Positions 5,771-61,934 of a stretch of DNA of 64,000 nucleotides are shown here, piece by piece (the stretch's first letter is position 1; each line of letters opens with the position of its first letter). A program made the position numbers and the translations under genes. Source of the DNA: Ahaetulla prasina (taxonomy: Eukaryota > Chordata > Lepidosauria > Squamata > Colubridae); contig NC_080544.1 of NCBI RefSeq assembly GCF_028640845.1, positions 58,790,711 through 58,854,710 of the forward strand, given 5' to 3'. The notes beneath the pieces are model-generated. The model was not told the origin of the DNA. It searched no databases and was given only the letters and a program-made list of their open reading frames with translations.

Positions 5771-6745
5771 TTAATGAACAGCATTCATGTAGAAATGGTA
5801 TAAGTAAAGATATTTTAATAGGAGCTTAAGGGATATTACGGTAAGCAAACTGAATAATAGAGTAGAAAGTGTACTAAAGAAAGGATAGCATAGAGGTCTC
5901 AGAAAATTGTAGTCTACAGATCACTGCAGAAACAATGGGATCTCCTTAATTGACTGCATAAGGTTACATCTCCAAAGGTGACCTGCTCGGTGCCCTGTTC
6001 TCAAACTATTTAGGAAGTTACATAGTGTGAAGTTTGTTTACAAACTAATAGGCAGTCACTGCAGTTATTTCAGCAGTAGTAGAATGTGCATACAGTAGAT
6101 ACTTCTTCAGCAACTTAGCTGCTGCCTGCATCCCATTAAAAACCCATTAGTGGAAGATGCCCCTGTCCAGGAAAAGGTATAGCTGGTATACTAACAAATG
6201 TTCCAGGTCACAGAACTAAGTTGGGCCTCCAATGATGATAAACCAAATTCACATATTGAGGAATACACCCGCCCAACTGAGGCTCTGTGTTGTTAGGATT
6301 CAGCCTCTGTATTTGAATTTATTACTTATTCAGCATCTGAAAATATGCTTGATCAGATATGACAGCATAACAAAAATACACGTGCATCTTCCAAAATGCC
6401 TGCGGTCCAATATACATTGTTTTTTCACAACTTTCTGCCTCTTTTCCACAACAAACTGCAATGATGGCACATGAGGTACTACAAACCATGCACTGCGGTA
6501 ATAAAAATTTTCTGACATTTTCAGAGAAGGCATACACGGCGCTTCTGAGGGCTAATCCAAGACACTTTGCTGCCTAATGCCTGACAATATTCTTACACTC
6601 TCAAATACCATGTATGAGAATGATAGTTGAATAAAAAGCAACAGATCATTTTAAAGCATAAGGCTAAGTTAAAGGGTATAAAATTGATCACATGGTGAAA
6701 AAATTGTCCTTTATCTTCTAAAATAGCTGTCTTAGAATGTCTCTT
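5771..6745. other. CNNM2 intron, nothing recognised
   Basis: Intronic sequence of moderate AT content. Short open frames on both strands around 6232-6537 overlap each other antisense and resemble no known protein. I see no repeat boundaries. Confidence 0.45.
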
Positions 6746-6746
6746 T

Positions 6747-6816
6747 TTGTTACAATACAGAGGCAGTCACATCCACATCTGTATTTTGTTACAATACAGA
6801 GGCAGTCACATCCATT
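6747..6816 (+). repeat. Short tandem duplication (about 38-bp period)
   Basis: The block starting TTTGTTACAATACAGAGGCA and continuing GTCACATCCA occurs at about 6747-6776 and again at about 6785-6814, separated by a few bases. The two units are identical over about 30 bp, pointing to a recent local duplication about 150 bp downstream of a CNNM2 exon. Confidence 0.8.
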
Positions 6817-6960
6817 TTAAAATGGGCTAGGCTTTCAATTTTAGTTCATATTTAATTCTTCTCTTCTCAAAATGTAATTTCCCTCAAAAAATAAAAAGAC
6901 AGAAAACTTTATTACAAGAAGGCTTTTGTATAATTCCGAGGGCAAACACTGTGGTGCTTA

Positions 6961-8466
<1,506 letters not shown>

Positions 8467-8925: not shown

Positions 8926-9166
8926 TGTATCACCCTTTTGGCCACAGTAAAGGCATGGAGAATCCATTTATGTTATTTTAGCTGTCAGATTTCATGTAGT
9001 TAAACAGAATATTTTGGACTATGGAAGATCATTTCAATAAATTATTATTGCAGCAAGATTACCATAGGCATAGATTTGGAAAGATTTGACACCACTCATT
9101 ATGAAGAAATGGTTGGTGAAGAAAATAGATCTTGCTGAAATAGATAAATTGACTTGTTTGATTAAA

Positions 9167-10212
9167 ACTCCGGAGAAGACGCCTAGAGAGTACCTGGAGG
9201 TCCAGCCGTTCCGAGGCTGATCGGACACTAGTTAGGTCTTTCCCGAAGACCTACCTAGTGGCACTGAGGGAGGCGAAACGTTCCTACGTTTCCACCCTCA
9301 TTGCCTCGGCAGATAACCGCCCGGCCGCCCTATTTCGGGTGACCCGCTCTCTCCTACATCAGGAGGGGCGGGATGACCCCTTGCAGGGACGTGCCGAGGA
9401 GTTTAGTGGTTATCTATACGATAAAATCGCTCAGCTCCGGGATAGTTTGGACCAAAATTGTGATGATCCAGGTGAGATGATGGAGACGCGTCTTGTCGAT
9501 GTTGTTTGGGATGAGTTTGATTCTGTGGCTCTCGAGGACGTGGACAGGCTACTGGGGAGGTTACATGCCACCACATGTTTACTGGACCCGTGTCCCTCCT
9601 GGCTGGTGCTGGCCACTCAGGAGGTGACACGAGGCTGGCTCCGGGGAATTATAAATGCTTCATTGTTGGAAGGGGTTTTCCCCGCCGCCTTGAAAGAGGC
9701 GGTGGTGAGACCCCTCCTCAAGAAGCCTTCCCTGGACCCAGCTATTTTGGGAAATTATCGTCCAGTCTCCAACCTTCGCTTTGTGGCGAAGGTTGTAGAG
9801 AGTGTGGTGGCATGGCAGCTTCCCCAGTACCTGGATGAAGCTGTCTATCTAGACCCATTCCAGTCTGGCTTCCGGTCCGGATATAGTACGGAGACAGCTT
9901 TGGTCGCGTTGGTGGATGACCTCTGGAGGGCCAGGGATAGGGGTTGTTCCTCTGCCCTCTCTCAGCGGCTTTTGATACCATCGACCATGGTATCCTGCTG
10001 CACCGGTTGGAGAATTTAGGAGTGGGAGGCACCGTTTATCGGTGGTTCTCCTCCTATCTCTCTGACCGGTCGCAGATGGTGTTGACAGGAGGGCAGAGAT
10101 CGACCACGAGGCGCCTTACTTGTGGGGTGCCTCAGGGGTCGATTCTCTCGCCTCTCCTGTTCAACATCTATATGAAGCCGTTGGGCGAGGTCATCAGTGG
10201 CTTTGGGGTGAG
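9167..10212 (+). mobile_element. L2-type LINE copy A, 5' half (interrupted by copy B)
   Basis: Plus-strand remnant of an L2-clade LINE ORF2 from the endonuclease/RT linker into the reverse transcriptase. It reads VVRPLLKKPSLDPAILGNYR and PVSNLRFVAKVVESV (RT entry), SGFRSGYSTETALVALVDDL, then after a frameshift near 9960 [32 protein letters not shown] and GFGV. It stops in mid-RT at 10212, where copy B is inserted, and resumes at 13213 with YQLYADDT. The 5' end is truncated. Not functional. Confidence 0.9.
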
Positions 10213-10384
10213 TAATAAAGCTCCCCTGATTTTAGATCTAATTCAGGAAGGGACCACGGATGTTATGGGCATTACGGAAACCTGGTTGGGCACAGAAGGG
10301 GGGTTTCCCCTAGTAGAGATGTGCCCACCAGGTTTCCGAGCATTCCATCAGCCGAGGGCCCAAGGTAGGGGTGGCGGGGTGGCG

Positions 10385-10957
10385 GTTATTATTTATTTAT
10401 TTATTTATTTATTTTATTTATTTTATTAAATTTCTATACCGCCCTTCTCCCGAAGGACTCAGGGCGGTGCACAGCCAGAATAAAAACACAGAATATATAC
10501 AATTAAAAGAAATTAAAATGAACTATTACTATACGGCCGATAATTAAAACATTTAAAAATTTAAAATATTATTAAAACCCCAATTTAAAATCAACTATTT
10601 ATGCCAGTCCTGCTTGAATGAATAAATATGTTTTAAGCTCACGACGAAAGGTCCGAAGATCAGACATCCCGGTCAAGGAAGGGACGCAACTGGCGAACCA
10701 AGCGAACTTGGTAAAAGGCCCTCCTGGTGATGGCCGCCAGATGTTCATCAAAGGACAGCCGACCATCCAGGAGGACACCCAAGTTGCGAACCACCTCCTT
10801 TGGGGCCACTAACTCGCCCCCAACAGTCAGCTGCGGATGACTGTACCGGGGTGCCGGCATCCACAGCCACTCCGTCTTGGAGGGATTGAGCTTGAGTCTG
10901 TTTCTCCCCATCCAGACCCGTACGGCTTCCAGGCACCGGGACAGCACTTCGACCGAA
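10385..10957 (-). mobile_element. L2-type LINE copy C, nested in copy B
   Basis: Minus-strand L2 3' fragment. Reading right to left it has [50 protein letters not shown] and RQLRPFLDRD, then jumps by an internal deletion straight to FRREL and the 3' UTR, the hairpin sequence at 10439-10469 and a TTTA-repeat tail at 10387-10426. It interrupts the endonuclease of copy B between GGGVAVI and RERLEP; TTATTA-type sequence on both sides suggests a short TSD. Confidence 0.85.
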
Positions 10958-11735
10958 TTATTAGGGAGAGGCTGGAACCGAGGGAGACCACTGTGCCTCA
11001 GATAGCTGGGTGTGAAACCCTCTATGTGAAGTGGGGTCGTAGGACTCAGGTGGGCTTGTTGATCACGTACCTGGCTCCTTGCTATGTGACAACAGCCCTG
11101 CCCGGGCTGTTGGAGTTGCTAGCTGGGTTGGCAGTTGAGACCCCTAGACTGTTGGTCATGGGGGATTTCAACTTGCCATCAACTGGCACGGCATCCTCGG
11201 CCGCTCGGGAGTTCATGGCTTCCATGACGGCCATGGACCTGACTCAATTAATTGATGGCCCTACTCACATTGGGGGAGGCACCCTGGACTTGGTTTTTAT
11301 CTCTGGCCAGTGGTTGAATGATCTGATTTTAAAAGATTTAGTTATCGATCCTTTGTCATGGTCAGATCATTTTCTCCTTCGTCTGGACTTTCAGACCGCT
11401 ACCCACTGCCGCAGGGAGATGGAACCAATGCGTTGGTTCCGTCCCAGGCGCCTGATGGAACCTGAGAGGTTCCTGACGGAGCTTGGGCCGCTTCCGGAGA
11501 ATCTGGCCCACGGCACGACTGAAGAGCTGGTCACGGCCTGGGAACAGGCCGCGGCTGGAGCTTTGGACCGTGTCGTGCCTTTGCGGCCTCTGACCCGGCG
11601 TCGGTCTCAACCAGCTCCTTGGTTTTCCGAGGAGCTGAGGGAGATGAAACGCCGGAGAAGACGCCTAGAGAGTGTCTGGAGATCCAGCCGTTCTGAGGCT
11701 GACCGGACACTAGTTAGGTCCTATAGCAGGTCCTA
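10958..11735 (+). pseudogene. L2 ORF2 endonuclease domain (copy B)
   Basis: Open frame with the AP-endonuclease signature of non-LTR retrotransposons: LLVMGDFNLPSTGTASSA (catalytic N within GDFN), THIGGGTLDLVFIS and WSDHFLLRLDF (the SDH motif that holds the catalytic His). The following basic stretch RRRRRLESVWRSSRSEADRT begins the linker to RT. The first half of the domain lies at 10213-10384, before the copy C insertion. The deletion after 11735 removes the RT fingers, so no active protein is made. Confidence 0.85.
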
Positions 11736-12990
11736 TACCCCAGTACCTGGAGGAATCTGTCTATCTAGACCCGTTCCAGTCCGGCTTTCGGCCCGGAGAC
11801 AGCTTTGGTTGCGCTGGTGGATGATCTCTGGAGGGCCAGGGATAGGGGTCATTCCTCTGCCCTGGTCCTATTAGATCTCTCAGCGGCTTTCGATACCATT
11901 GACCATGGTATCCTGCTGCGCCGGCTGGAGGGGTTGGGAGTGGGAGGCACCGTTTATCGGTGGTTCTCCTCCTACCTCGCTGACCGGATGCAGACGGTGT
12001 TGACAGGGGGGCAGAGATCGACTCCAAGGCGCCTCATGTGTGGGGTGCCGCAGGGGTCGATTCTCTCACCCCTCCTGTTCAACATCTATATGAAGCCGCT
12101 GGGTGAGATCATCAGTGGCTTTGGGGTGAGATACCAACTGTACGCTGATGACACTCTGCTGTACTTTGCCACCCCAGGCCACCCCAGCGAAGCTGTCAAA
12201 GTGCTGTCCCGGTGTTTGGAAGCCGTACGGGTCTGGATGGGGAGAAACAGGCTCAAACTTAATCCCACCAAGACGGAGTGGCTGTGGATGCCGGCACCTC
12301 GGTACAGTCAGCTGCAGATGCGGCTGTCCATCAGGGGCGAGTCGTTGGCCCCGATGGAGAAGGTACGCAACTTGGGCGTGCTCCTGGATGGTTGGTTGTC
12401 CTTTGAAGATCATTTGGCGACCGTCTCCAGGAGAGCTTTTTATCAGGTTCGCCTGATCCGCCAGTTGCGTCCCTTCCTGGACCGGGATGCCCTATGCACA
12501 GTCACTCATGCTCTCGTTACCTCTCGTCTGGACTACTGCCATGCTCTCTACATGGGGCTCCCCTTGAAGAGCACCCGGAGACTTCAGCTAGTCCAGAATG
12601 CGGCTGCGCGGGTTATTGAGGGAACGGTTCGGAGCTCCCACGTAACACCTATCCTGCGCAGACTGCACTGGCCCTGTTGTTTTCCGGGTGCGCTTCAAGG
12701 TATTGGTTACCACCTTTAAAGCGCTCCATGGCTTAGGACCGGGCTATCTATGGGACCGTCTACTGCCGGCCTCTATCTCCCATCGTCCGGTGCGTTCCCA
12801 CAGAGAGGGACTCCTCAGGGTGCCGTCAGCCAAACAGTGTCGACTGGCGGCTCCCAGGGGGAGGGCCTTCTCTGTGGGGGCTCCTACCCTGTGGAACGAA
12901 CTTCCCCTCGGGCTCCGACAACTACCTGACCTTAGGACCTTTCGCCGCGAACTTAAAACCTATTTATTTCATATGGCTGGACTAGCTTGA
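11736..12990 (+). pseudogene. L2 ORF2 reverse transcriptase and C-terminus (copy B)
   Basis: The long frame at about 11805-12719 has the RT motifs LLDLSAAFDTIDHG (catalytic Asp), [20 protein letters not shown] and YADDTLLYF (catalytic DD), then the thumb-like region LKLNPTKTEWLWM and VRQLRPFLDRDALC-type blocks. After a frameshift near 12690 the C-terminus continues as RFKVLVTTFKALHGLGPGYL and WNELPLGLRQLPDL to a stop at 12988. Because RT fingers are deleted and a frameshift is present, this is a dead but quite young copy. Confidence 0.88.
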
Positions 12991-13148
12991 TTTTTACTTT
13001 TAAATTTTAATTTAATTGAATTTGATGGGTTTTTAAAGTTTTGTAATTTTATGGGGGTGTATATTATTTTAATATTTGGGCAAATTTAAATCAATTTCTT
13101 AAGGGATGTTTTAACTATTGTGTATATCTGTATTTTATCTGCCTGTTC

Positions 13149-13179
13149 ACCGCCCTGAGTCCTTCGGGAGAAGGGCGGT
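13149..13179 (+). ncRNA. 3'-terminal UUCG hairpin of L2-type LINE
   Basis: The RNA would form an 8-bp stem, ACCGCCCU paired with AGGGCGGU, a small internal loop (GAG opposite GA), and an inner UCC/GGA stem closed by a UUCG tetraloop. It sits immediately before the 3' repeat tail, where the LINE reverse transcriptase is expected to bind its template. Same-family copies carry it at 14214-14244, 10439-10469, 23334-23364 and 24741-24771 (the last three on the minus strand). Confidence 0.7.
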
Positions 13180-13206
13180 ATACAAATTAAAATATTCATT
13201 CATTCA

Positions 13207-14260
13207 GTCAGTTACCAGCTATACGCTGACGATACTCATTTTTCCACCCCGGGCCACCCCAACGAAGCTGTCGAAGTGCTATCCCGGTGCCTGGAAGTCG
13301 TACGGGTCTGGATGGGGAGAAACAGACTCAAGCTCAATCCCTCCAAGACGGAGTGGCTGTGGAGGCCGGCACCCCGGTACAGTCAGCTGCAACCGCGGCT
13401 GTCTGTTGGGGGCGAGTCACTGGCCCCAACAGAGAGGGTACGCAACTTGGGCGTTCTCCTGGATGGACGGCTGTCGTTTGAAGATCACTTGGTGGCCGTC
13501 TCCAGGAGAGCTTTTTACCAGGTCCGCCTGGTCCGCCAGTTGCGCCCCTTCCTTGACCGGGATGCCTTATGCACAGTCACTCACGCTCTTGTCACTTCTC
13601 ACCTGGATTATTGCAATGCTCTCTACATGGGGCTACCCTTGAAGTGCACTCGGAGGCTTCAGTTAGTTCAGAATGCAGCTGCGCGGGAGCCACACGTTGC
13701 TCCCATGTAACACCGTTCCTGCGCAGTCTGCACTGCTACCTGTGGTCTTTCGGGTGCGCTTCAAGGTGTTGGTTACTACCTTTAAAGTGCTCCATGGCTT
13801 AGGGCCCGGGTACTTACGGGACCACCTGCTGTTACCTTATGCCTCCCACTGACCCGTACCCTCACACAGAGAGGGTCTTCTCAGGGTGCCGTCCACCAAG
13901 CAATGTCGGCTGGCAGCCTCCAGGGGAAGGGGCTTCTCTGTTGGAGCACCTACCCTCTGGAACGAACTTCCCCCTGGTTTGCGTCAATTACCTGACCTTC
14001 GGACCTTTCGCTGTGAATTGAAAACGCACTTGTTTATCCAAGCGGGACTGGCTTAATTTTTTAAACTTTTGAATTTTAATAATTTTAATTGGGGTATTTT
14101 ATGAATTTTATGGGTCAAATTTGACGGTTTTAAATTTTCGGCCATTTATAGAATATGTTATTTTAATTTTTGTTTTAATTTGTATATTGTACTGTTTTTT
14201 AATCTGGCTGTACACCGCCTTGAGTCCTTCGGGAGAAGGGCGGTATAAAAATCTAAATAA

Positions 14261-14347
<87 letters not shown>
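13207..14347 (+). mobile_element. L2-type LINE copy A, 3' half
   Basis: Continuation of copy A after the copy B insertion: YQLYADDTH, LSRCLEVVRVWMGRNRLKLN, VRNLGVLLDGRLSFEDHLV and QLRPFLDRDALCTVTHALV to about 13690, then frameshifted C-terminal sequence (about 13700-14050), an AT-rich 3' UTR, the hairpin at 14214-14244 and a long TAAA array ending at about 14347. The array is the LINE's own 3' tail. Confidence 0.88.
14258..14347 (+). repeat. (TAAA)n microsatellite tail
   Basis: About 20 near-perfect TAAA units directly after the 3' hairpin of L2 copy A. The position marks it as an expanded LINE tail. Confidence 0.95.
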
Positions 14348-22720: not shown

Positions 22721-23281
22721 CCATTTTATTTGTAAGCCAGATGTAGCCACAAAAAATGAAATGGGCAACTGTATATATTGAATGAATGATCAGGCTTTTT
22801 TTACCAGGCCCTTATTAAGGGAGATTTGTGAATTGCTGAAACATTATAAGTTTTTAAGTTTTCATATTCTGGATGATTATTTTATGCATTTAATTGTTAT
22901 ATTATGCTTTTAACCATTTCTGTATGCCCCTTAAAGTTACATGACTATTAGATAGATTTATAATCAAATTAATTAATAAAATATTCTAATATATTGCTTT
23001 TCATTTCCTATACTGGGCATCTTTGGCATGGTTCCAGAGCAATTTTAGAGCAGAAACTTTTCCTTTACTACCACTAGTATGGACAGTTAGCTGGCTTCCT
23101 TAGCAAATACAATTCTATACCCTATTCCCCCAGATTGGATACATTGTTTTTTTAAAAATATTCCCAATGTATAACAATGTAGTTTTGGGGAAAGAAAGAG
23201 TTAGGTGCACTCTAGGACAAACAAAGAAATCTAACTCATATCGATTTCTAGGAAGAGAAATGAAGCAGCATTGTTTAATTT
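22721..23281. other. No gene recognised
   Basis: AT-rich, possibly the decayed 3' end of the preceding repeat to about 22980. Nothing else supportable. Confidence 0.4.
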
Positions 23282-24533
23282 TATTTTGGTTTATTTATTT
23301 TATTTATTTTTATTTATTTTATTTGATTTTTATACCGCCCTTCTCCCGAAGGACTCAGGGCGGTGTACAGGCATAATAAAACCGACAATACAATATACAA
23401 GTTTAAAATACGATTTAAAAAACTTATTTTAAATTAGCCCAATAATTAAAATTTACCATACTAAGAAAACCCCGTTTAAAATTAATAAATTTAAACATTA
23501 AAATCCCAATTTAAGCCAGCCCTGCGCGGATAAAAAGATGAGTCTTGAGTTCGCGACGAAATGTCCGAAGGTCGGGTATTTGGCGAAACCCGGGGAAGTT
23601 CGTTCCAGAGTGTGGAGCCCCACAGAGAAGGCCCTTCCTGGGGCCGCCAGCCGACATTGTTTGGCGGACGGCACCCTGAGAAGTCCCTCTATGGGAGCGC
23701 ACGGGTCGGTGGGAGGCGGTGGTAACAGCAGGCGGTCCCGTAAGTACCCAGGTCCTAAGCCATGGAGCGATTTAAAGGTCATAACCAACACCTTAAAGTG
23801 CACCCGAAGGCCACAGGCAGCCAGTGCAGTCTGCGCAGGAGCGGTGTTACATGGGAGCTACGCGTAGCTCCTCTATAACCCGCGCAGCTGCATTCTGACT
23901 AACTGAAGCCTCCGAGCGCACTTCAAGGGAGCCCCATGTAGAGAGCATTACAGTAATCCAAGCGAGAGGTAGCAGGCGCATGAGTGACTGTGCATAAGGC
24001 ATCCCGATCAAGGAAGGCGAACTGCCGAACCAGGCGAACCTGGTGGAAGGCCCTCCTGAGACGGCCAAATGGTCTTCAAACGACAGCCGATCATCCAGGA
24101 GGACACCCAAGTTGCGCACCCTATCCTTTGGGGCCAATAACTCGCCTCCAACAGCCAGCCGCGGCTGCAGCTGACTGAATCGGGGTGCCGGCATCCACAG
24201 CCACTCCGTCTTGGAGGGATTAAGCTTGAGCCTGTTTCTCCCCATCCAGACCCGTACAGCTTCCAAACACCGGGACAGCACTTCGACAACTTCATTGGGG
24301 TGGTCTGGGGTGGAAAAGTACAGCTGAGTGTCGTCAGCGTACTGCTGGTATCTCACCCCAAAACCACTGATGATCTCACCCAACGGCTTCATGTAGATGT
24401 TGAACAGCAGGGGCGAGAGAATCGACCCCTGTGGGACCCCACAAGTGAGGCCCCTCGCGGTCGACCTCTGCCCCCCTGTCAACACCGTCTGCGACCGGTC
24501 AGAGAGATAGGAGGAGAACCACCGATACCGATG
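23282..24533 (-). mobile_element. L2-type LINE copy D
   Basis: Minus-strand L2-type LINE, 5'-truncated in the RT. From right to left: [73 protein letters not shown] and VRNLGVLLDDRLSFEDHLA, then frameshifts, and the C-terminus FRRELKTHLFIRAGLA near 23511. The 3' UTR holds the hairpin at 23334-23364 and a TTTA-type tail at 23285-23325. RT catalytic YADD is present but the fingers are missing and frames are broken. Confidence 0.88.
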
Positions 24534-24689
24534 GTTGTGTTCAAGGCCATTCCTGATTCCTGACAAAGATATTGAGAGTCTCAATCTCTATTTGGATGAG
24601 CCTACCAAGCAAATTCACCCTTGTTTTTCAGTCATTAAAACCAACACACATACATGCTGCTGTTATGTTTCTTCATAAATGTTATTTTA
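24534..24689. other. Spacer between two L2 copies
   Basis: Unique-looking sequence between the 5' end of copy D and the 3' tail of copy E. No feature recognised. Confidence 0.5.
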
Positions 24690-26262
24690 AGTATTTATTT
24701 TATTTATTTATTATTATTTATTTATTATTTTAATTTATATACCGCCCTTCTCCCGAAGAACTCAGGGCGGTTTACAGCCAAATAAAACAACAATCACAAA
24801 AATTAAGAACATTTTTTAAAAACTAATTCAATTTGGCTAAGAAGAACTAAAACTCTAATAAAAAACCCCATTAAAACTATTAGGCCAGCCCTGCGTGATG
24901 GAACAAAAATGTCTTCAGATCGCGTCGGAAGGTCCAGAGGTCAGGGAGTTGACGTATCCCTGGAGGCAGCTCGTTCCAGAGGGCAGGGCCCCCCCTGGAG
25001 AAGGCCCTCCCTCTGGGGGTCGCCAGTCGACATTGTCTGACCAACGGCACCCTGAGGAGACCCTCCCTATGGGAGCGCACTGGTCGATGGGAGGCAATTG
25101 GTAGCAGCAAGTGGTCCCATAAATAACCCGGTCCTATGCCATGGAGCGCTTTGAAAGTGGTAACCAGTACCTTGAATTGCACCCGGAAGACCACCGGAAG
25201 CCAGTGCAGCTTGCGCAGGAGAGGTGTTACATGGGAGCCTTGAGTTGCTCCATCTATCACCCGCGCAGCCACATTCTGGACCAGTTGGAGTTTCCGGGTG
25301 CTCTTCAAGGGGAGCCCCATGTAGAGACCGTTGCAGTAGTCCAGGTGGGAAGTGACGAGGGCGTGAGTGACTATGCATAGGGAATCCCGGTCTAAGAAGG
25401 GACACAACTGGTGTATCAGGCGAACCTGATAAAAAGCTCCCCTGGCGACGGCCGTCATATGCTCTTCTAAAGACAGCCGTACATCCAGGAGGACACCTAG
25501 ATTGCGGACCCTCTCCATGGGGGCCAATGACTCACCCACTACAGTCAGCGATGGAATCAGCTGGCTGTACCGGGATGCCGGCATCCACAGCCACTCAGTC
25601 TTGGAAGGGTTGAGTCAGAGCCTGTTTTTCCCCATCCAGACCCGCACGGCCTCCAGACACCGGGACATCACTTCAACGGCTTCGTTGGGGTGGTTAGGAG
25701 TGGAAATGTACAGCTGTGTATCATCAGCATACAGGTGACACCACACCCCAAAACCACGGATGATCTCACCTAGCGGCTTCATGTAGATGTTGAACAGGAG
25801 AGGCGAGAGAACCGACCCCTGTGGCACTCCACACGAGGCGCCTAGCGGCCGATCTCTGCCCCCCTGCCAACACCGTCTGCGACCGGTCAGAAAGGAAGGA
25901 GGAGAACCACCGAAAGACGGTGCCCCCCACTCCTAACCCCTCCAGCCGTCGCAGCAAGATACCATGGTCGATGGTATCAAAACCCGCTGAGAGATCTAAT
26001 AGGACCAGGGCAGAGGAACAACCCCTGTCCTGGGCCCTCCAAAGATCATCCACCAACGTGACCAATGCTGTCTCTGTGCTGTACCCAGGCCGGAAGCCGG
26101 ACTGGGACGGGTCAAGATAGACATTTTCATCCAGGTGCTGGGGGAGCTGTTGCGCCACCACACTCTCAATAACCTTCGCCACAAAACGAAGGTTGGAGAC
26201 GGGACGATAATTCTCTAAAGCAGCTGGATCCACGGAGGGCTTCTTGAGGAGGGGCCTCAAGT
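24690..26262 (-). mobile_element. L2-type LINE copy E
   Basis: Minus-strand L2-type LINE starting in RT (MRPLLKKPSVDPAALENYRP, VSNLRFVAKVIESVVAQQLP) and covering SGFRPGYSTETALVTLVDDL, SAGFDTIDHGILLRRLEG, then after a frameshift [20 protein letters not shown] and [16 protein letters not shown] stop falls at about 25615, after WMGKNRL. The final frame at 24880-25584 is open to the natural C-terminus FLFHHAGLA. The hairpin sequence is at 24741-24771 and a TTTA tail at 24692-24733. In SAGFDT a Gly replaces the usual Ala next to the catalytic Asp. Least damaged L2 C-terminus in the window. Confidence 0.9.
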
Positions 26263-39016: not shown

Positions 39017-39357
39017 CAGGGGTAAAATCTAAAAATTTTCCTTACCGGTTCTGTGGGCGTTGGTTAATTGGTGGGCGTGGCTTGGTGGTCAGATGACTGG
39101 GTGGGTGTGGCCAATAACAAATAATAAAAATAATAAACAAAGTATACAAAACAATAAGTGGTACCAAAAACCATCTTTCACAATTTACACACACAAAATA
39201 CAATACAACACAACACAACACAACTGACACACACACAATGTAAAAGCAGCTGCACTTCACCCAAAATGGCCCCTGCAACAAGCAGGAACCTCACACAGCC
39301 ACAAAAAGCTCAAAAACCAACTTTCACACTTTACACACACATACAACAAAACTGACT

Positions 39358-39388
<31 letters not shown>

Positions 39389-40119
39389 CCACATACAGCT
39401 TTGTGAGATTGTGTATTTGTGTAGTTAGAATGAAACACTACAGAAACACAACAAATTTCAGAAAGCTGCACATATATTTTATTTTATTATTTTATTTTAT
39501 TAATATTTTTTAGATGGGGTCTCCAACCTTAGTAACTTTAAGGTTTGTGGACTTCAATTCCCAGAGTTCCTCAGCCAAGAAAGCAGGCAGATTAGTTGCT
39601 CACTGAGGAAATGGATTAGCTAGCAACTGATTCTGCCTGCTGAAACTGCTCCTTTCGGGCTGGGAATGCCATTCAGTAATTAGTAATTAGTAATTCAGTA
39701 ATTAGGTGAGTGCCTTAGAATCTCTTAAAAGGAGGTTTTCTACAAGCTCGGCCGAAGAGCTTGTAGAAAACATGTTTTTTAAGGTTCTGCTGATGAGGAA
39801 CTCAGCTGCAATTGCCAGAGGAGCCTTTTAAAACTTTTTTTTTCAGCTGAAGAGGTTGTTAAAAAAAGAGTTTAAAGGCTCTGACGCTCTCAGCTGAGCC
39901 GTGGGATCCTCAAATGCTTTTTTTTTACTTTTAAAGGCATGTTTTCAGCTGAAGAAAAACTGCTTTTAAAACTAAAAAAAAAACAACCTCTGATGATGGT
40001 GCGGCTCAGCAGAGGCGGGGGGGGGGGGCAAGGATTTTTGCCACCCGTTCTCCGAACCACCAGCCGCCATCGCTACTGGATCGGGTGAGCCAGTCCAAAC
40101 CGGGAGCATTTCACCCCTG
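39017..40119. mobile_element. hAT non-autonomous element with perfect TSD CCTTGACT (1,103 bp)
   Basis: Left end CAGGGGTAAAATC, right end (inverted) CAGGGGTGAAATGC. The perfect 8-bp TSD CCTTGACT is at 39009-39016 and 40120-40127. Subterminal GTGGGCGTGGCTTGGTGGTC and CAGATGACTGGGTGGG-type repeats are the complement of those at the right end of the PGK1-bearing element, so the two share a family. The interior includes CA-rich sequence, an arm of the foldback MITE (39520-39620) and A/T-run palindromes. No transposase. Confidence 0.92.
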
Positions 40120-41885: not shown

Positions 41886-41968
41886 GGTAGAAGGGACGTT
41901 GGTCTTACCTGAGATGTTCCTTCTTGTTAGGGTGGAAATAGCATCCAGGAATGGGTTTATTCCGTCTG

Positions 41969-43492
41969 TTAGCTAATTGGACTGAGTCTGCAAGTTGTTA
42001 TGACATGCCTCCTCTGCTTGCGTCCCCAGCTTTTTGACAAAGACGTCGATGCAGACTGATGTGCTGTGCTGTGTTGCAGTCGTATTCCCTTGTGGACCCA
42101 GGACCAGATGCCAATCTGGATGGGACTGGATGCTATCTCCACCCCAACAAGAAGGAGTGTCTCAGGTAAGACCAACGCCCCTTCTCCATAGTGGTGGAGA
42201 TAGCAGCCAGGAATGGGACATTCCAAAGCTGGCTGTACTATGGGCAGGGCGCGGTCTAGTCTGAAATCCCTGCTCTGTGTGGACACTCTGAAGTACCCGC
42301 CTGCCAAAGGCCACCTCAGCTGAGGCCTAAGTGTCCAAATTATAATGGCGGATAAAAGGGGATAGAGAGGACCAGGTAGCAGCTCGACACACCTCCTCAA
42401 TAGAGGCCTGTGTTACCCATGCCCCAGAGGTGGCCACACTCCTGGCAACAGCAAGGCCTGGATCTCATAGGCCTTGGCGATACATGCCCTACTCCAGCAT
42501 CCCAAGGTTGAGGAGGTAACCCTGTTGCCCAGTGTGGCAGGCTGAAAAGAGATAAAGAGGGACTCCGTCCTCTGCAGAGAGAAAGTCCTTTTGATATATA
42601 TGCGGAGGGTTCTCCGCACATTCAAGGTGTGCCACCTATGTTCCAAATGATGAACTGGCTCAGGACAGAAGTTCAGCAGCACCAGTTCCTGAGCCTTGTA
42701 GAATCAAGCGTTCACCTTGGGGTGAAGGATGGGTCCAGCCCCAAAACCATTCTGTCAGAATGGAATACACAAACGTCTTCCCTTACCAACAGAGCCGCTA
42801 GTTCGGAGACCTCCCTGGCCGATGTAATGGCCACCAGAAATGCCACCTTACACATAAGGTAGTGTACGCTGGGTTCTCAAAGATTTGAAGGGGGCTCCGG
42901 TAAGGCCTTGGCCAGGTCTCATGTCAGGTACCTGTGCGCCACAGGTGGCTTGACGTTGGTTGCTCCCTGAGGAACCGCCGGATCACGGGTGCTGGGAGAG
43001 GGAGTCCATGGCTTCACATGTCAAAACGGAGGACAGAGCTGCCACCCGCCTCCTGATCGTATTTGGGGATAGCCCGTTGTCCAGTCCTTCCTGGAGAAAC
43101 TCCAGGATCTGGGCTACGAAAACATCCATAGGGACCAATCCCCCTTTGGCACACCACCCACAAAAAGTGATATATAACATCACATATAACATTTGGTTGG
43201 TGGTGACCTTGGAGGAGAAATTGTCCCCACTCAAAAGGCTCCGGTCAAGTGCCAGGCAGTCAGTTGGAACCACTGTGGGTCCGGATGGACCAACGCCCCT
43301 GGCTGAGGGAGACTCTGAGGGATCCTCCATGGTCGAGCCACCAACAGGTTTACTAGGTCTGTGAATCAAGGCCTTTTGGGCCAGTGGAGGGGCAGAAGCA
43401 GAAGGTCCTCCTCCAGCAGCTTCCTGATGACTTTTGTAATAAGAGGAAGAGAAGGAAAGGTGTACAGCAATCCTGGAGGCCAGGGACTGCAC
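41969..43492 (-). pseudogene. DIRS tyrosine recombinase (copy 1, broken)
   Basis: The N-terminal core-binding part at 42983-43492 reads VFVAQILEFLQEGLDNGLSP and NTIRRRVAALSSVLT. The catalytic part at 42413-42682 reads HLEHRWHTLNVRRTLRIYIK, RTESLFISFQPATLGNRVTS and CIAKAYEIQALLLPGVW, then loses frame before the HxxR motif. Compare the better preserved copy at 60880-61489, which keeps R, HxxR and Y. The enzyme normally integrates the circular DNA intermediate. Confidence 0.82.
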
Positions 43493-53471: not shown

Positions 53472-53479
53472 CTGTATAT
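53472..53479. repeat. Target-site duplication, left (CTGTATAT)
   Basis: Identical to 56129-56136. It brackets the PGK1-bearing hAT element exactly at its terminal inverted repeats. Confidence 0.95.
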
Positions 53480-53689
53480 CAGTGGTGGGTTGCTACCCTT
53501 CCGTACTGGTTCAGGAGAACCAGTAGTAAAAATATTTAGTAGTTCGCAGAACCAGTAGGAAAAGATGGATGGCAACGCCCCCGAACCGGTCGCCGGTCGC
53601 TCGCCCCGGCCGCCTATTCCCTTCCCTGCGGCCCTGCTATGATTGCCTGCCACCGATGCCTGCCATGGCAAAAAGCCACACAGGAAAAG

Positions 53690-53935
53690 TTCCCAGGACT
53701 CCCCCCCGCCGCTACCACCGCTACTGTCGCCCCGCCACCACCTCTGCTGCCGCCGCCACCCCCACCGCCTTTGCTGCTGCCGCGCTGCAACCTTTGCTGC
53801 CGCCGCCGCCATCTCTGCCGCTGTCCCCGCCGCTGCCCCCGCCACCCCTGCCACCACCTCTGCCGCTGCCCCTGCCGCTGCCCCGCCACCACCGCCACCT
53901 CTGCCGCCACTGTCGCCGCCTACAGGCATCTTCAA
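53690..53935 (+). repeat. CCG/CCA-rich imperfect repeat inside hAT
   Basis: Nearly pure C/G/T-rich trinucleotide-like sequence (CCGCCGCCACC, CTGCCGCTGCC types). All three plus frames are open as Pro/Leu/Ala-rich runs, as expected from composition alone. It may be expanded upstream DNA of the captured gene or a separate acquisition. Confidence 0.8.
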
Positions 53936-54089
53936 ACTTGCCTCCTTTAAGACTTGTGGACCAATCAACTCCCAGACCAACCGTCCAACCTGAACACACA
54001 TCGCCCTGACCGACGCTGACGGCTACCAATCCAGACTCGGCAAAAGGAGAGCACGAGGTGGGTGGGTGGGGGAAATGGAGCTTTCCGAA

Positions 54090-54322
54090 CATGTCAAACA
54101 CAACTTTCCGAATCGGCCGAGCAGCCCCCCTGGCCGAGATTGACGGCCTTGCTCGGCTAATTGCATGAATCCTGGGAAGTGGGTCAGCCTATCCAGAGGA
54201 GGCGGAGGTGGGGCATGGCCTCCCCTGACCTGCCGAAGAGATCCGCCGCCTCCCTTGCTCTTTCTCTGCCTCGCTCACTTGCTGCTCAGCCGGAGGTCGC
54301 TTGCTATGCTGGAGTCGCCAAG
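54090..54322 (+). promoter_or_regulatory. PGK1-derived GC-rich 5' region (putative captured promoter/5' UTR)
   Basis: The 230 bp before the PGK1 start codon are GC-rich with many CpGs (GAATCGGCCGAGC, GAGATCCGCCGCC, GCCGGAGGTCGC) and no TATA box. GGGAAGTGGG at 54174-54183 is ETS-like, and GGAGGCGGAGGTGGGGC (54199-54215) is Sp1-like. The start codon context is GTCGCCAAGATGTC, close to the Kozak optimum. Vertebrate PGK1 promoters are TATA-less CpG islands, which fits. Activity here is inference. Confidence 0.55.
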
Positions 54323-54387
54323 ATGTCACTCTCCCACAAGCTCACCCTCGATAAAGTCGACGTGAAGGGCAAGCGTGTTGTCATGAG
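54323..54387 (+). CDS. PGK1: Phosphoglycerate kinase 1, first coding exon (captured, isolated)
   Basis: From ATG the frame reads MSLSHKLTLDKVDVKGKR and VVM, then two bases (AG) of an Arg codon, then the splice donor GTGACG at 54388. This is the N-terminus of phosphoglycerate kinase 1 (cytosolic glycolysis, 1,3-bisphosphoglycerate plus ADP to 3-phosphoglycerate plus ATP), and the exon ends at the same place and phase as exon 1 of vertebrate PGK1 as I know it. Two residues differ from the human sequence as I recall it (Asn5 to His, Leu12 to Val). Without splicing, the frame stops at 54389-54391. No exon 2 (VDFNVPM-like) is visible downstream. The exon lies wholly inside a hAT element with a perfect TSD, so it is best read as captured, not the native locus. 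It has no disabling change: ATG, frame and donor are all intact. Confidence 0.85.
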
Positions 54388-54617
54388 GTGACGCTTGAGC
54401 AGGGGCTGCCCTTCCGAAGGGTCAGAGGGTTTCTGGGGGAGGGGGGGCCGCAGGAGCTGCGCTGATCTGGGAGGCACCCACAGTGCTGCTCCCCTTCGCT
54501 CTGAGGGGCAGCGAGCGCCTTTGAGGTCGCCGCAGCCGAACCTGAAGGGCCTCCCTGGTGAGGGAGGGGGAGCAAGGGGCCCTTTGCCCAGCCACGGGTG
54601 GAAAGAACTCCAAGGCA

Positions 54618-54748
54618 GGGGTCTCCAACCTCGGCCACATTGTGGTCTTCAACTCCCAGAATTCCTCTGGGAGCAAAGCTGGCTGAGGAATTCTGGGAGT
54701 TGAAGTACACAAGTCTTAAAGGAGCCAAGTTTGCAGACACCTGTCCTA
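54618..54748. mobile_element. Foldback MITE (AACTCCCAGAATTCCTCTGG)
   Basis: CAGGGGTCTCCAACCTCGGC at the left and an imperfect inverse (TTTGCAGACACCTGTCCT) at the right. The middle is a long palindrome: CTTCAACTCCCAGAATTCCT facing AGGAATTCTGGGAGTTGAAG. The CAGGGGTCTCC ends are hAT-like. It is nested in the PGK1-bearing element, probably inserted in the captured PGK1 intron. Confidence 0.8.
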
Positions 54749-54751
54749 GAC

Positions 54752-54809
54752 TTTGAAGGAGGGAGGGAGGGAGAGGGAGAGAGAGATAATGAAAGAAAGA
54801 AAGAAAAAG

Positions 54810-54856
<47 letters not shown>

Positions 54857-55248
54857 AGGAAGGAAGGAAGGAAGGAAGGACAGAAAGAAAGAAAGAAAGA
54901 AAGAAAGGAAGGAAGGAAGGAAGGAAGGAAGGAAGGAAGGAAGGAAGGAAGGAAGGAAGGAAGGAAGGAAGGAAGAAAGATTCATGGATGGTTGATTGAT
55001 GGCACAAAATAAATCAATTTGATTCGTGGCACAAAATAATGCAAAAGAGAAAGAAAAAGAGAAAGAGAAAGAGAAAGAAAGGGAGAGACAAGAAAGAAAG
55101 AGAGAAAGAAAGAAGGAAAGAGGGAGAGAGAGAGAGAAAAGAGAGAAAGAAAGTAAAAGGGAAAGAAAGGGAGAGACAAGAAAGAGATAAAGAAAGAAGA
55201 AAGAGAAAGGAAGGGAGAGAGAGAGAGAGAGAAAGAAGAGGAAGGAAG
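54752..55248 (+). repeat. Long polypurine GAAA/GGAA/GAGA microsatellite
   Basis: About 500 bp almost entirely purine on the plus strand: GGGA, then GAAA (54793-54855), GGAA (54855-54880 and 54905-54973), a short mixed break at 54975-55040, then AGAAA/AGAG mixtures to 55248. Open frames on both strands here are repeat artefacts (Lys/Glu/Arg or Ser/Phe/Leu runs). Confidence 0.95.
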
Positions 55249-55299
55249 AACCACAAACCCTGGCACTAGATGTGGCTTCAGAAGATGCTTTGAAACAGG

Positions 55300-55560
55300 A
55301 CAGCAATCTAGGGCTGGAAGGGATCTTAGGGGCCATCTAATTCAACCCGCTCCTCCAGCAGGAAATCTTACATCTCTAGATTATTTTGGTGCCTCTAACG
55401 AAGAGGAAAATTGCCAGAAAGGAGAAGGAGTTTACTAGGTCAAGGCTGCCATGCAGAGGAAGGCAGAGATAGTCCTTGTCTTATGACCAGAATTGAGCCC
55501 AAAATTTTGGTTGCTAAGCAAGAGCATTGTTAAGTGAGTTTCACCACATTTTACTCAGTC
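55300..55560. mobile_element. CR1 3'-end and mariner-like MITE fragments inside hAT
   Basis: 55308-55370 (GGGCTGGAAGGGATCTTAGG, GGCCATCTAATTCAACCCGC, TCCAGCAGGAAATCTTAC) is a diverged antisense CR1 3' end. 55476-55556 (TAGTCCTTGTCTTATGACCA, AATTGAGCCCAAAATTTTGG, TTGTTAAGTGAGTTT) is the left third of the mariner-like MITE family. Confidence 0.65.
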
Positions 55561-55939
55561 CATGATCTCTCCTGGCTCTAACAGTCATGTGCAAGTTAGG
55601 GAAGAACATCTGAAGTGTGTGTAATGTTCTAAATGTACAGAAGTTATAGTTAAATGTGTGGCAGAAAGTGGACTCCAGGTATCTTTTTCCAAATGTAGTA
55701 AGTGAGGTTGAATGTATATAGTTTTAGAAGAGGAGTGTGTGTATGTGTATGTACATACAGTATATATATAGTAGATAATGTATCTTTTTGTGTGCCTATA
55801 CACGCTATACTATGTAATATGTATGTACACATATGGCATATATACATAGGATTTAATAGTATATTTTGGATGTTCAGTAGTAGTAAATAAATAGACAGGG
55901 AAATTGACGTCAGTGACATCAACCTTTGACATGAGTGAC

Positions 55940-56090
55940 ATCAAGTTGGCCACACCCACCCAGTCACATGATTACCCAGTTACACCCACCCAGTCACATG
56001 ACCACCAAACCACGCATACCCAGTCACATGACCAAGCCACACTCACTGTCATATGACCATCAAGCCACACCCAAAAAATAAGCCACGCCC
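55940..56090. repeat. Subterminal tandem repeats of the hAT element
   Basis: Four imperfect units of about 25-30 bp around CCCAGTCACATGACCACCAA (55962, 55991, 56019 and 56048 regions), each with CCACACCCA-like sequence between. The inverted counterpart is at the left end of the 39017 element. Such subterminal repeats are typical transposase-binding sites in hAT families. Confidence 0.8.
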
Positions 56091-56128
56091 ACAGAACTGG
56101 TAGTAAAAAAATTTAGAACCCACCCCTG

Positions 56129-56136
56129 CTGTATAT
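56129..56136. repeat. Target-site duplication, right (CTGTATAT)
   Basis: Perfect partner of 53472-53479. Confidence 0.95.
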
Positions 56137-60769: not shown

Positions 60770-61489
60770 GTGCAGGTTCCACAGGGGCACAACGAACTTG
60801 AGGCCCCCTGTGGTTCACAGGTATCCCACCTGGGACCTGACAAGGTTTTGCATGCTCTCACCGAGGGGCACTTCAAGCCACTAAGATCAGTTATCCTGTG
60901 TTTCCTCACATGTAAGGTAGATGTCCTTGCGGCCATCACGTCGGCCAGACAGATGTCAAAACTGGCAATCCTTTCTGTGAGGAAAGACCTATGTATATTC
61001 CACTCTGACAGGGTGGTCTTACAGTTGGACGCCTCCTTTGTTCCCAAGGTGAATTCCTGGTTCCATAGGGCCCAGGAATTGATACTGCCTGAATTTAGCC
61101 CAGGGCCAAAACATGCCCTGGAGAAGAGATGGCACACCTTGGATGTTAGGAGGGCCCTATGCATTTATATTAAGAAGACTTCTCCCCTCAGGAGGACAGA
61201 GTCCCTATTTGTTTCTTTCCAACCCTCTACTCTGGGCAACAGGGTCACTCCATCAACAGTAGGATGGTGGATTCGGCCGTGCATTGCCAAGGCCTATGAG
61301 TTTCAGGCTCTTTTAGTACCTTGGAGTGTGATGGCCCATTCCACCAGAAGTGCGGCCACAACAGCAGCTTGGGCGACACAGGATATAGAGGAGGTCTGTG
61401 GAGCAGCGGCATGGTCCTCTCCATCTCCTTTTATCACACACTACAAGTTGGACATCTTCACTTTGGCTCAGGTGGCCTTTGGCAGGTGA
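60770..61489 (+). pseudogene. DIRS tyrosine recombinase (copy 2, catalytic part open)
   Basis: An uninterrupted 239-codon frame. It includes VDVLAAITSARQMSKLAILS (first catalytic Arg in SAR), IFHSDRVVLQLDASFVPKVN, KRWHTLDVRRALCIYIKKTS, LGNRVTPSTVGWWIRPCIAK, AHSTRSAATTAAWATQDIEE (HxxR) and FITHYKLDIFTLA (nucleophile Tyr). The Arg, HxxR and Tyr of the tyrosine recombinase family are all present. The N-terminal core-binding domain is absent, so activity is unlikely, but the catalytic half is surprisingly well preserved. The frame ends near the natural C-terminus, AQVAFGR. Confidence 0.85.
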
Positions 61490-61934
61490 ATTCTCCAAAG
61501 GGAACACACTGATCAGGGACTGAGGACCAGACTGTTTCCCACCTGTAGGACAGGGTGGCTAAGTCCCATTCCTGGATTCTCTCTCCTCAGCACAATGGAG
61601 AAGGGGCGTTGGTCCTACCTGACATGCTCCTTCTCATGGCGTTGAGAGAGAGAATCCAGCCCCACCCTGACTAATATCTGGTCCACAGTCCGGGAGAGTC
61701 TCATATTTTCACAGGTCACAAGCCTTGTCATCGCTACGCCTTTGCCAAACTGGGAGGTCACCAGGCAAGGGAGGCATCACCAAAAAAGATGACAGGCTCA
61801 GTCTCCAGGCAGAAGAAAAGAACAACACCCATTCCTAGATTCTCTCTCTCAGCGCCATGAGAAGGAGCATGTCAGGTAGGACCAACACCCCTTCTCTTTG
61901 ATTTCTTTCTATTTTTTGTTTTCCTTACGTTATA

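Follow-up and report, generated by a model that had tools for sequence, protein, structure and literature searches.

The stretch of DNA considered here comprises 64,000 nucleotides of the genome of the colubrid Ahaetulla prasina (NCBI RefSeq assembly GCF_028640845.1, contig NC_080544.1, positions 58,790,711 to 58,854,710; G000:C6:58790711-58854710 in our numbering) and is called the window throughout. At 53480-56128 it holds a complete, non-autonomous transposable element of the hAT class that carries the 5' end of PGK1, as a first-pass annotation of the window had observed. Searches of the 1.77-Gb genome, in which all locus counts are lower bounds, confirm this observation and bring out two features that are invisible from the window alone, namely that sequence of a miniature inverted-repeat transposable element (MITE) bounds the PGK1 DNA on both sides and that a second gene has been captured by the same family.

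A hAT element with the start of PGK1

The element begins and ends with terminal inverted repeats (TIRs) of 12 bp that differ by one mismatch, CAGTGGTGGGTT on the left (53480..53491, plus strand), an end found identically in other copies, and CAGGGGTGGGTT, read as the reverse complement, on the right (56117..56128, minus strand). Both start with CAGNG, the motif with which hAT TIRs begin. On either side lies the target site duplication (TSD) CTGTATAT (53472..53479 and 56129..56136; read directly and compared with other copies), the two flanks agreeing at 8/8 bases, so that the hAT ends and perfect 8-bp duplication reported in the first-pass annotation are both present.

Between these ends, all on the plus strand, the hAT left part (53480..53922) consists of subterminal sequence to about 53614, which in whole or in part is common to cargo-free relatives and two-gene copies described below, and then of CCG-rich DNA. 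The left arm of a hAT-type MITE follows (53923..53976), aligning at 96-98% with the MITE of six cargo-free relatives and stopping after TCAACTCCCAGA; this MITE probably sat inside the element before the capture. The captured PGK1 DNA (53977..54711), delimited by blast against the resident locus and by alignment of the junctions, comprises upstream sequence, exon 1 and a part of intron 1 with its own MITE. Within it, the coding part of exon 1 (54323..54387; MSLSHKLTLDKVDVKGKRVVM plus AG) is followed by the splice donor GTGACG (54388..54393), which was read directly and in the alignment of copies. Beyond lie what is left of the right MITE arm native to the element (54712..54743), which aligns as element-like and unlike PGK1, the element's GA-rich microsatellite (54753..55250, interrupted at about 54981-55045), a like tract of which borders the second capture, and the hAT right part (55257..56128), common to other members of the family.

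The exon, which the first-pass annotation had assigned to PGK1, is indeed PGK1 exon 1. It starts with the ATG at 54323, is 65 nt long and lies on the same strand as the element; its 21-residue peptide matches residues 1-21 of PGK1 chains in PDB (best E 5e-6), and the human PGK1 protein finds it by tblastn in the window at E 5e-7, in agreement with blast and the alignment of copies. The same tblastn search found no further PGK1 exons in the window (next best match E 0.2), and a Pfam scan of both captured exon peptides, that of PGK1 and that of the second gene, TLCD3A, found nothing.

Helitrons, which transpose by a rolling circle and have neither TSDs nor TIRs, are unlike this element, which has both. 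Processed pseudogenes have their introns removed and a poly-A tail, whereas here the donor, part of intron 1 and the upstream DNA are all kept. The element has instead two properties of the animal Pack-TIR elements: its cargo is a fragment of a host gene with the parent elsewhere (resident PGK1 on C11 and, for the second cargo, resident TLCD3A on C1), and cargo and element have moved jointly to many loci. The earlier view that this is a vertebrate Pack-hAT is upheld, the similarity to PGK1 being real and the resident gene lying on another contig.

The resident gene and copies of the PGK1 element

Searched against the genome, the 65-nt exon gave 11 matches (11/11 candidates scored). One is resident PGK1 (locus L010 on C11), where exons 2 and 3 lie downstream of exon 1; the other 10/11, window included, sit in the same hAT element, blast showing it to surround the exon both in the window and at nine further loci (two of the nine without one end). 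Apart from the resident copy, this search turned up no PGK1 exon 1 in the genome that lies outside a hAT element. The longer query 53955-54620 (43 rows, best 40 of 52 candidates) gave, besides the resident gene, at least 12 loci of the PGK1 element (the window, L009, L011-L018, L030 and L031), at least 27 loci of a second type recognised by their match pattern, and three more rows that are second pieces of the latter. A count of copies in the assembly had been proposed together with the supposition that the family multiplied after the capture, and the count supports the supposition. Moreover, because the PGK1-bearing element occurs at at least 12 loci, chance or an assembly join is excluded as its origin.

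The ATG is kept in 10/10 aligned loci and the GT of the donor in 8/10 (lost in L015 and L018), and L014 has a one-base deletion within the exon. L030, considered as a possible older intermediate copy, reads CTG in place of ATG, its excess of differences seeming, by eye, to lie mostly within a scrambled exon stretch, and L031 stops short of the exon at the equivalent of 54282. A tree of the PGK1 segment has low support (34-57) and gives no order among the copies.

Flanks were compared in eight PGK1 copies with both ends read: the TSDs agree at 8/8 bases in the window, at 7/8 in L009, L012 and L018 and at 6/8 in L013, while L011 reaches 7/8 only after a one-base shift. Across the wider family (22 copies: 8 with PGK1, 9 two-gene and 5 cargo-free), at least 7/8 flank bases agree without any shift in 15/22 copies, as against 2/462 cross-paired flanks. 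In L015 (oriented 6447-7099), the right end corresponding to 55455-56129 is present twice in tandem.

A second captured gene

The loci of the second type, of which 17 of 27 (L032-L048) were fetched in 3.2-kb pieces, carry DNA of two genes. The hAT left-end sequence is present in 16/17 of them (L041 lacks it), and the copies then show nearly the whole MITE, followed by PGK1 54243-54297 fused to about 54360-54501; the second-type consensus has no PGK1 ATG, which was removed by this shortening of the PGK1 piece. The next DNA, about 770 bp long, is new, and beyond it, within the extent of the pieces, lie the GA tract and the hAT right part. The new DNA contains an ATG exon (copy consensus MWQTLALGLVFFPALFAASIRSLWWLAPEWSLKDRILLSGR) followed by a GT donor. 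As a query against the genome it gave 45 rows (best 40 of 47 candidates), in which by our own count there are at least 37 loci with this cargo, some of them inspected for hAT ends, together with C1:5451048 and seven second pieces.

The locus at C1:5451048 holds the resident exon 1 and has no match to the hAT element of the window. The human TLCD3A protein matches exons at C1:5416803-5426198, on the same strand and downstream of it; one of these matches holds an in-frame TGA, and the protein also matches a TLCD3B-like place on C4. Because the C1 locus shows no match to that element and its exon 1 lies upstream of TLCD3A exons, we assign the second cargo to TLCD3A, from whose 5' end it would hold upstream DNA and exon 1.

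Among nine two-gene copies with ends compared, the TSDs agree at 8/8 bases in L034, L047 and L048 and at 7/8 in L032, L037 and L039, and the flanks of L042 and L045 agree only if the right one is moved by one base. Between the one-gene and two-gene subfamilies, the PGK1 consensus differs at 7/220 sites, which fits a single PGK1 capture for both.

Cargo-free relatives and the capture junctions

The query 55257-56128 gave 44 matches in the genome (best 40 of 4125 candidates). Among the matches listed, thirteen places lie, judged by position, near neither a PGK1 nor a TLCD3A match (C6:91804418, which is 15 kb from a TLCD3A match, was left out), and six of the thirteen were fetched. No PGK1 match was found at the cassette place in the fetched stretches of these relatives (0/6), and in 6/6 MITE sequence begins at the position of 53923, the flank then reading like TCCTAGACTTTGAAGG with small differences. 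Their TSDs agree at 7/8 bases or better in 5/5 checkable copies, the sixth (L049) having its left end outside the fetched piece. Such elements likely represent the state before capture, with the MITE where the PGK1 cassette now sits. A stretch in one of them (L050:1815-2118, 304 bp, with a GTAAGC-like donor) was considered as a possible third captured 5' end; as a query it gave 53 rows (best 40 of 738 candidates), with no resident-gene-like outlier among the matches listed, and it is taken as part of the cargo-free family.

Alignment to the native PGK1 locus, likewise proposed in the first-pass annotation as a way to find the breakpoints, places MITE sequence at both edges of the capture. By blast, the window matches L010 over 53979-54719 at 81%, and in intron 1 of the resident gene, at about 4262-4363 of L010, there is a MITE that belongs to the same family as that of the element. 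The right-hand MITE of the captured copies aligns as PGK1-like until the stretch TCTGGGAGTTGAAGTCCACA and as element-like beyond it; these 20 nt are identical in the MITE of the PGK1 intron and that of the element, and the right switch point lies within 54692-54711. At the left junction the MITE arm ends after TCAACTCCCAGA and PGK1 upstream DNA starts, with about 3 common bases by eye. At the right edge of the TLCD3A capture, resident and captured sequence alike continue into a GA microsatellite, a tract present in the element too. Each capture thus has its right edge within a repeat that element and intron 1 have in common, and its left edge shows little or no homology, the junction homologies being given as read. 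A second, complete MITE of the same family lies in resident PGK1 intron 1 at about 4710-4852 of L010, some 350 bp downstream of the one linked to the capture.

Age and CpG decay of the copies

Over the captured PGK1 segment the copies differ from their own consensus by 5.6-14% (Kimura two-parameter distance), and the consensus differs from the resident gene by 11%. The observed/expected ratio of CpG is 1.01 in the resident segment and 0.48-0.70 in the copies. Positions that are CpG in the resident gene read TG or CA at 37-60% per copy (10 copies), as against 4-10% C>T or G>A among the remaining C and G positions, and 214/273 changes are C>T or G>A (eight of ten copies, L012 and L018 being left out together with the first 60 columns, where the left edge is weak). 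CpG decay of this kind suggests the mark of germline methylation. The pattern therefore argues against ten live promoters, and single copies may be active. The first-pass annotation had envisaged a strong, constitutive promoter with a ready-made first exon scattered across the genome; the spread of the cassette stands, and the working promoter is not borne out, given the CpG sites lost.

A probable mechanism of capture and its alternatives

The right edges of both captures fall in repeats common to the element and intron 1, which suggests repeat-primed template switching, and it is highly probable that the internal MITE and the GA microsatellite primed such switching, during repair or replication, and so captured the starts of genes. 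A non-autonomous hAT element already equipped with both repeats would have been the starting point. Its MITE would have paired with a member of its own MITE family within PGK1 intron 1, and synthesis may then have proceeded upstream, copying intron 1, then exon 1 and the promoter DNA, before rejoining the left arm of the MITE at a microhomology of about 3 nt, a direction, from intron 1 to promoter, that we infer from the layout of the junctions. The PGK1 element, now at no fewer than a dozen loci, would have been mobilised by hAT transposase supplied in trans. A derivative with the shortened PGK1 piece, presumably arising later, would then have captured the TLCD3A 5' end and spread to about 27 or more loci. 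With the copies methylated in the germline, as their CpG decay implies, most of the captured promoters would probably be silent now, and some splice donors would still be usable in principle.

Several observations weigh against this account. No transposase-like open reading frame (ORF) was noticed by eye, without a profile search, among the ORFs of 53480-56128, and no autonomous partner was identified, a genome search aimed at one not having been made. L014 and L017 lack one element end, and no TSD was seen at the compared flanks of L015 and L016 among the PGK1 copies or of L046 among the two-gene copies. The cargo-free elements occupy sites of their own and so are related insertions, not the present one before capture; two of them, L050 and L051, have a full-length MITE, and in the remaining four it is shortened internally. 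At the left TLCD3A junction, resident and captured sequence diverge at AAACAGCC with at most 1 common base by eye, and at the right edge the switch point inside the GA tract cannot be placed.

Moreover, the noncoding divergence is not what one would predict had the resident gene simply been captured recently, because transversions between consensus and resident exceed those between copies and consensus. At 482 noncoding sites, 23 transitions and 25 transversions separate the PGK1 consensus from resident PGK1 (5.2% transversions), as against 41 transversions in 4645 sites (0.9%) between nine copies and the consensus, or 73 in 5171 (1.4%) with L018, which is given apart on account of its poorly aligned intron; columns 1-60 of the alignment are excluded from these counts. 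For TLCD3A there are 22 transitions and 26 transversions at 601 noncoding sites (4.3% transversions) and 3 differences in 124 exon sites, and the copies show 1.47% transversions against their consensus (14 of 17 copies, those longer than 850 nt). Either the captured lineage predates the burst and was protected from decay, or the donors were not the resident genes but those of a different lineage or a paralogue since lost, or the noncoding DNA of the resident genes has changed fast.

This excess (5.2% against 0.9% for PGK1, 4.3% against 1.5% for TLCD3A) is what would be expected if a different lineage had supplied the captured PGK1, perhaps TLCD3A as well, and horizontal transfer had at some point brought the element in. 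Further, the PGK1 exon of the consensus equals the resident one at 65/65 sites while single copies have 1-6 exon changes, so that the captured copy had not been decaying long when the burst began. However, the TLCD3A numbers are also compatible with a capture in the resident lineage that preceded the burst by about one burst-length, a paralogue since lost or fast change of the resident noncoding DNA would serve as well, and the donor PGK1 has the same intron-1 MITE as the resident gene, which makes it a close relative; an origin outside the resident lineage is accordingly considered unlikely. Slightly less likely again is its fuller form, in which a loaded element would have captured both first exons in another vertebrate lineage, from genes already diverged, and entered by horizontal transfer thereafter. 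If true, promoter-plus-exon cassettes would have been carried from one species into another.

Capture by transposition, in which two MITEs flanking PGK1 exon 1 moved jointly as a composite into the hAT element, has in its favour that the PGK1 DNA lies between inverted MITE arms (40 nt, 88%). Yet the octamers beside the outer MITE ends are unlike (GCCGCCTA and TCCTAGAC), the cargo-free relatives show one MITE at the cassette place, and no free-standing MITE-PGK1-MITE unit was seen among the fetched loci (17 of 27 for the second type). The right arm, moreover, turns from PGK1-like to element-like within the MITE, which fits a template switch and not the insertion of a unit, and a composite is improbable. 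Still further down stands the idea that the PGK1 segment entered the element by retroposition or segmental duplication and became a passive passenger: PGK retrocopies are common in vertebrates, but the segment retains upstream DNA, donor and part of intron 1, and both its edges fall in MITE sequence that is uninterrupted in the cargo-free relatives, so that very little speaks for this route. Finally, a native PGK1 promoter and exon 1, with the hAT ends as unrelated insertions or an assembly join, would explain the CpG-rich DNA, ATG, exon and donor but is already refuted by the copies, since the same element occurs at other loci, with its own TSDs at several, and the native downstream exons that the first-pass annotation had named as fatal to its view lie not in the window, where no other PGK1 exon was found, but on C11.

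Relation to known captures and implications

Gene capture by hAT elements in animals has precedents. A survey of 100 animal genomes reports 370 Pack-TIR elements, 208 of them hAT, and in the available part of that report multicopy families number only four, three in frogs and one in an alligator (Tan et al., 2021; PMC8277862). The first-pass annotation knew of few clear vertebrate hAT cases with promoter and exon; hAT Pack-TIRs as such are on record in animals, and it is their multicopy families that are few. The closest described example, Pack-hAT-N8_XT of the western clawed frog, carries a 291-bp piece of the CAPSL 5' UTR (untranslated region) on three chromosomes (PMC8277862). The present family shares with it a hAT TIR element, a host-gene fragment with its parent elsewhere, distinct TSDs, a GC-rich cargo and template switching as the proposed route; unlike it, as far as its description is available, the present family has a coding exon 1 with its donor, at least 12 PGK1 and at least 27 two-gene loci, serial capture and cargo-free relatives (PMC8277862). 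On the same partial basis, it fits the animal Pack-TIR kind and exceeds the described frog example in copy number, coding and splice content and serial capture. No earlier report of this PGK1/TLCD3A hAT family was found among the top-ranked titles of a literature search, the supplementary tables of Tan et al. being outside its scope.

Other systems resemble it in part. Turmoil-1 of Caenorhabditis elegans is likewise an animal transposable element with two protein-coding sequences incorporated; it differs in being from a nematode and in having them in its inverted terminal repeats, and its description, in the part available, is not of a promoter and first exon spread by a hAT element (PMC2572040). 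The bat Helibat elements, in particular HelibatN3 with the NUBPL promoter, have dispersed the promoter of a host gene along with a short piece coding for the N-terminus and a donor, as far as the accessible text describes them (PMC4778049). Helibat is a Helitron, whereas here a hAT element with 8-bp TSDs is the carrier. Exon trapping is reported for HelibatN3 in the same text (PMC4778049), while the PGK1 element is known from sequence alone. Plant Pack-TYPE elements, including Pack-hAT, are also non-autonomous TIR elements with captured coding DNA; by the portion of their account at hand, the present case differs in being from a vertebrate and in having capture edges in repeats common to the element and host introns (PMC8903248).

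What is most valuable in these observations is that a second gene has been captured and that the junctions fall in shared repeats. Capture by cut-and-paste elements has mostly been argued from end products, and here one genome holds cargo-free relatives, one-gene and two-gene elements and both resident genes, which makes the junctions readable. They suggest that a repeat present in both the element and the host intron serves as the entry point, a MITE in one case and a GA tract in the other; if this is true, the first exons predicted to be most at risk of capture are those whose intron 1 contains such repeats. Further, a vertebrate hAT family can bring the upstream DNA of a housekeeping gene, a start codon and a splice donor to many loci, and HelibatN3 of bats is a parallel with a demonstrated use of such cargo, to the extent its published account is available (PMC4778049).

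Surroundings of the element in the window

One or more exons of CNNM2, which encodes a metal transporter, lie on the minus strand within 2035-2334 (match to CNNM2 in PDB, E 7e-33), and a CNNM-like exon on the same strand near 6976-7059 was recognised by eye; no first exon of CNNM2 was noticed by eye among the long ORFs of the window. The element of the window probably lies in or upstream of CNNM2, with the PGK1 cassette antisense to it, and sense splicing into CNNM2 is therefore not expected.

A second complete hAT element occupies 39017-40119, both flanks reading CCTTGACT. The likeness that the first-pass annotation saw between the two elements is real, as an end of the second matches 56128-56036 (95 bp, 77%) and resembles, inverted, the right end of 53480-56128. 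Two arrays of reverse-transcriptase-bearing copies of long interspersed nuclear elements, CR1-like by eye and about 75-85% alike, extend over 9162-14311 and 23271-26259 in partly opposite orientations. A pair of related, inverted repeats lies at 41889-42852 and 60911-61895 (68% over 1 kb), and ORFs near this pair resemble, by eye, the remains of a tyrosine-recombinase retroelement.

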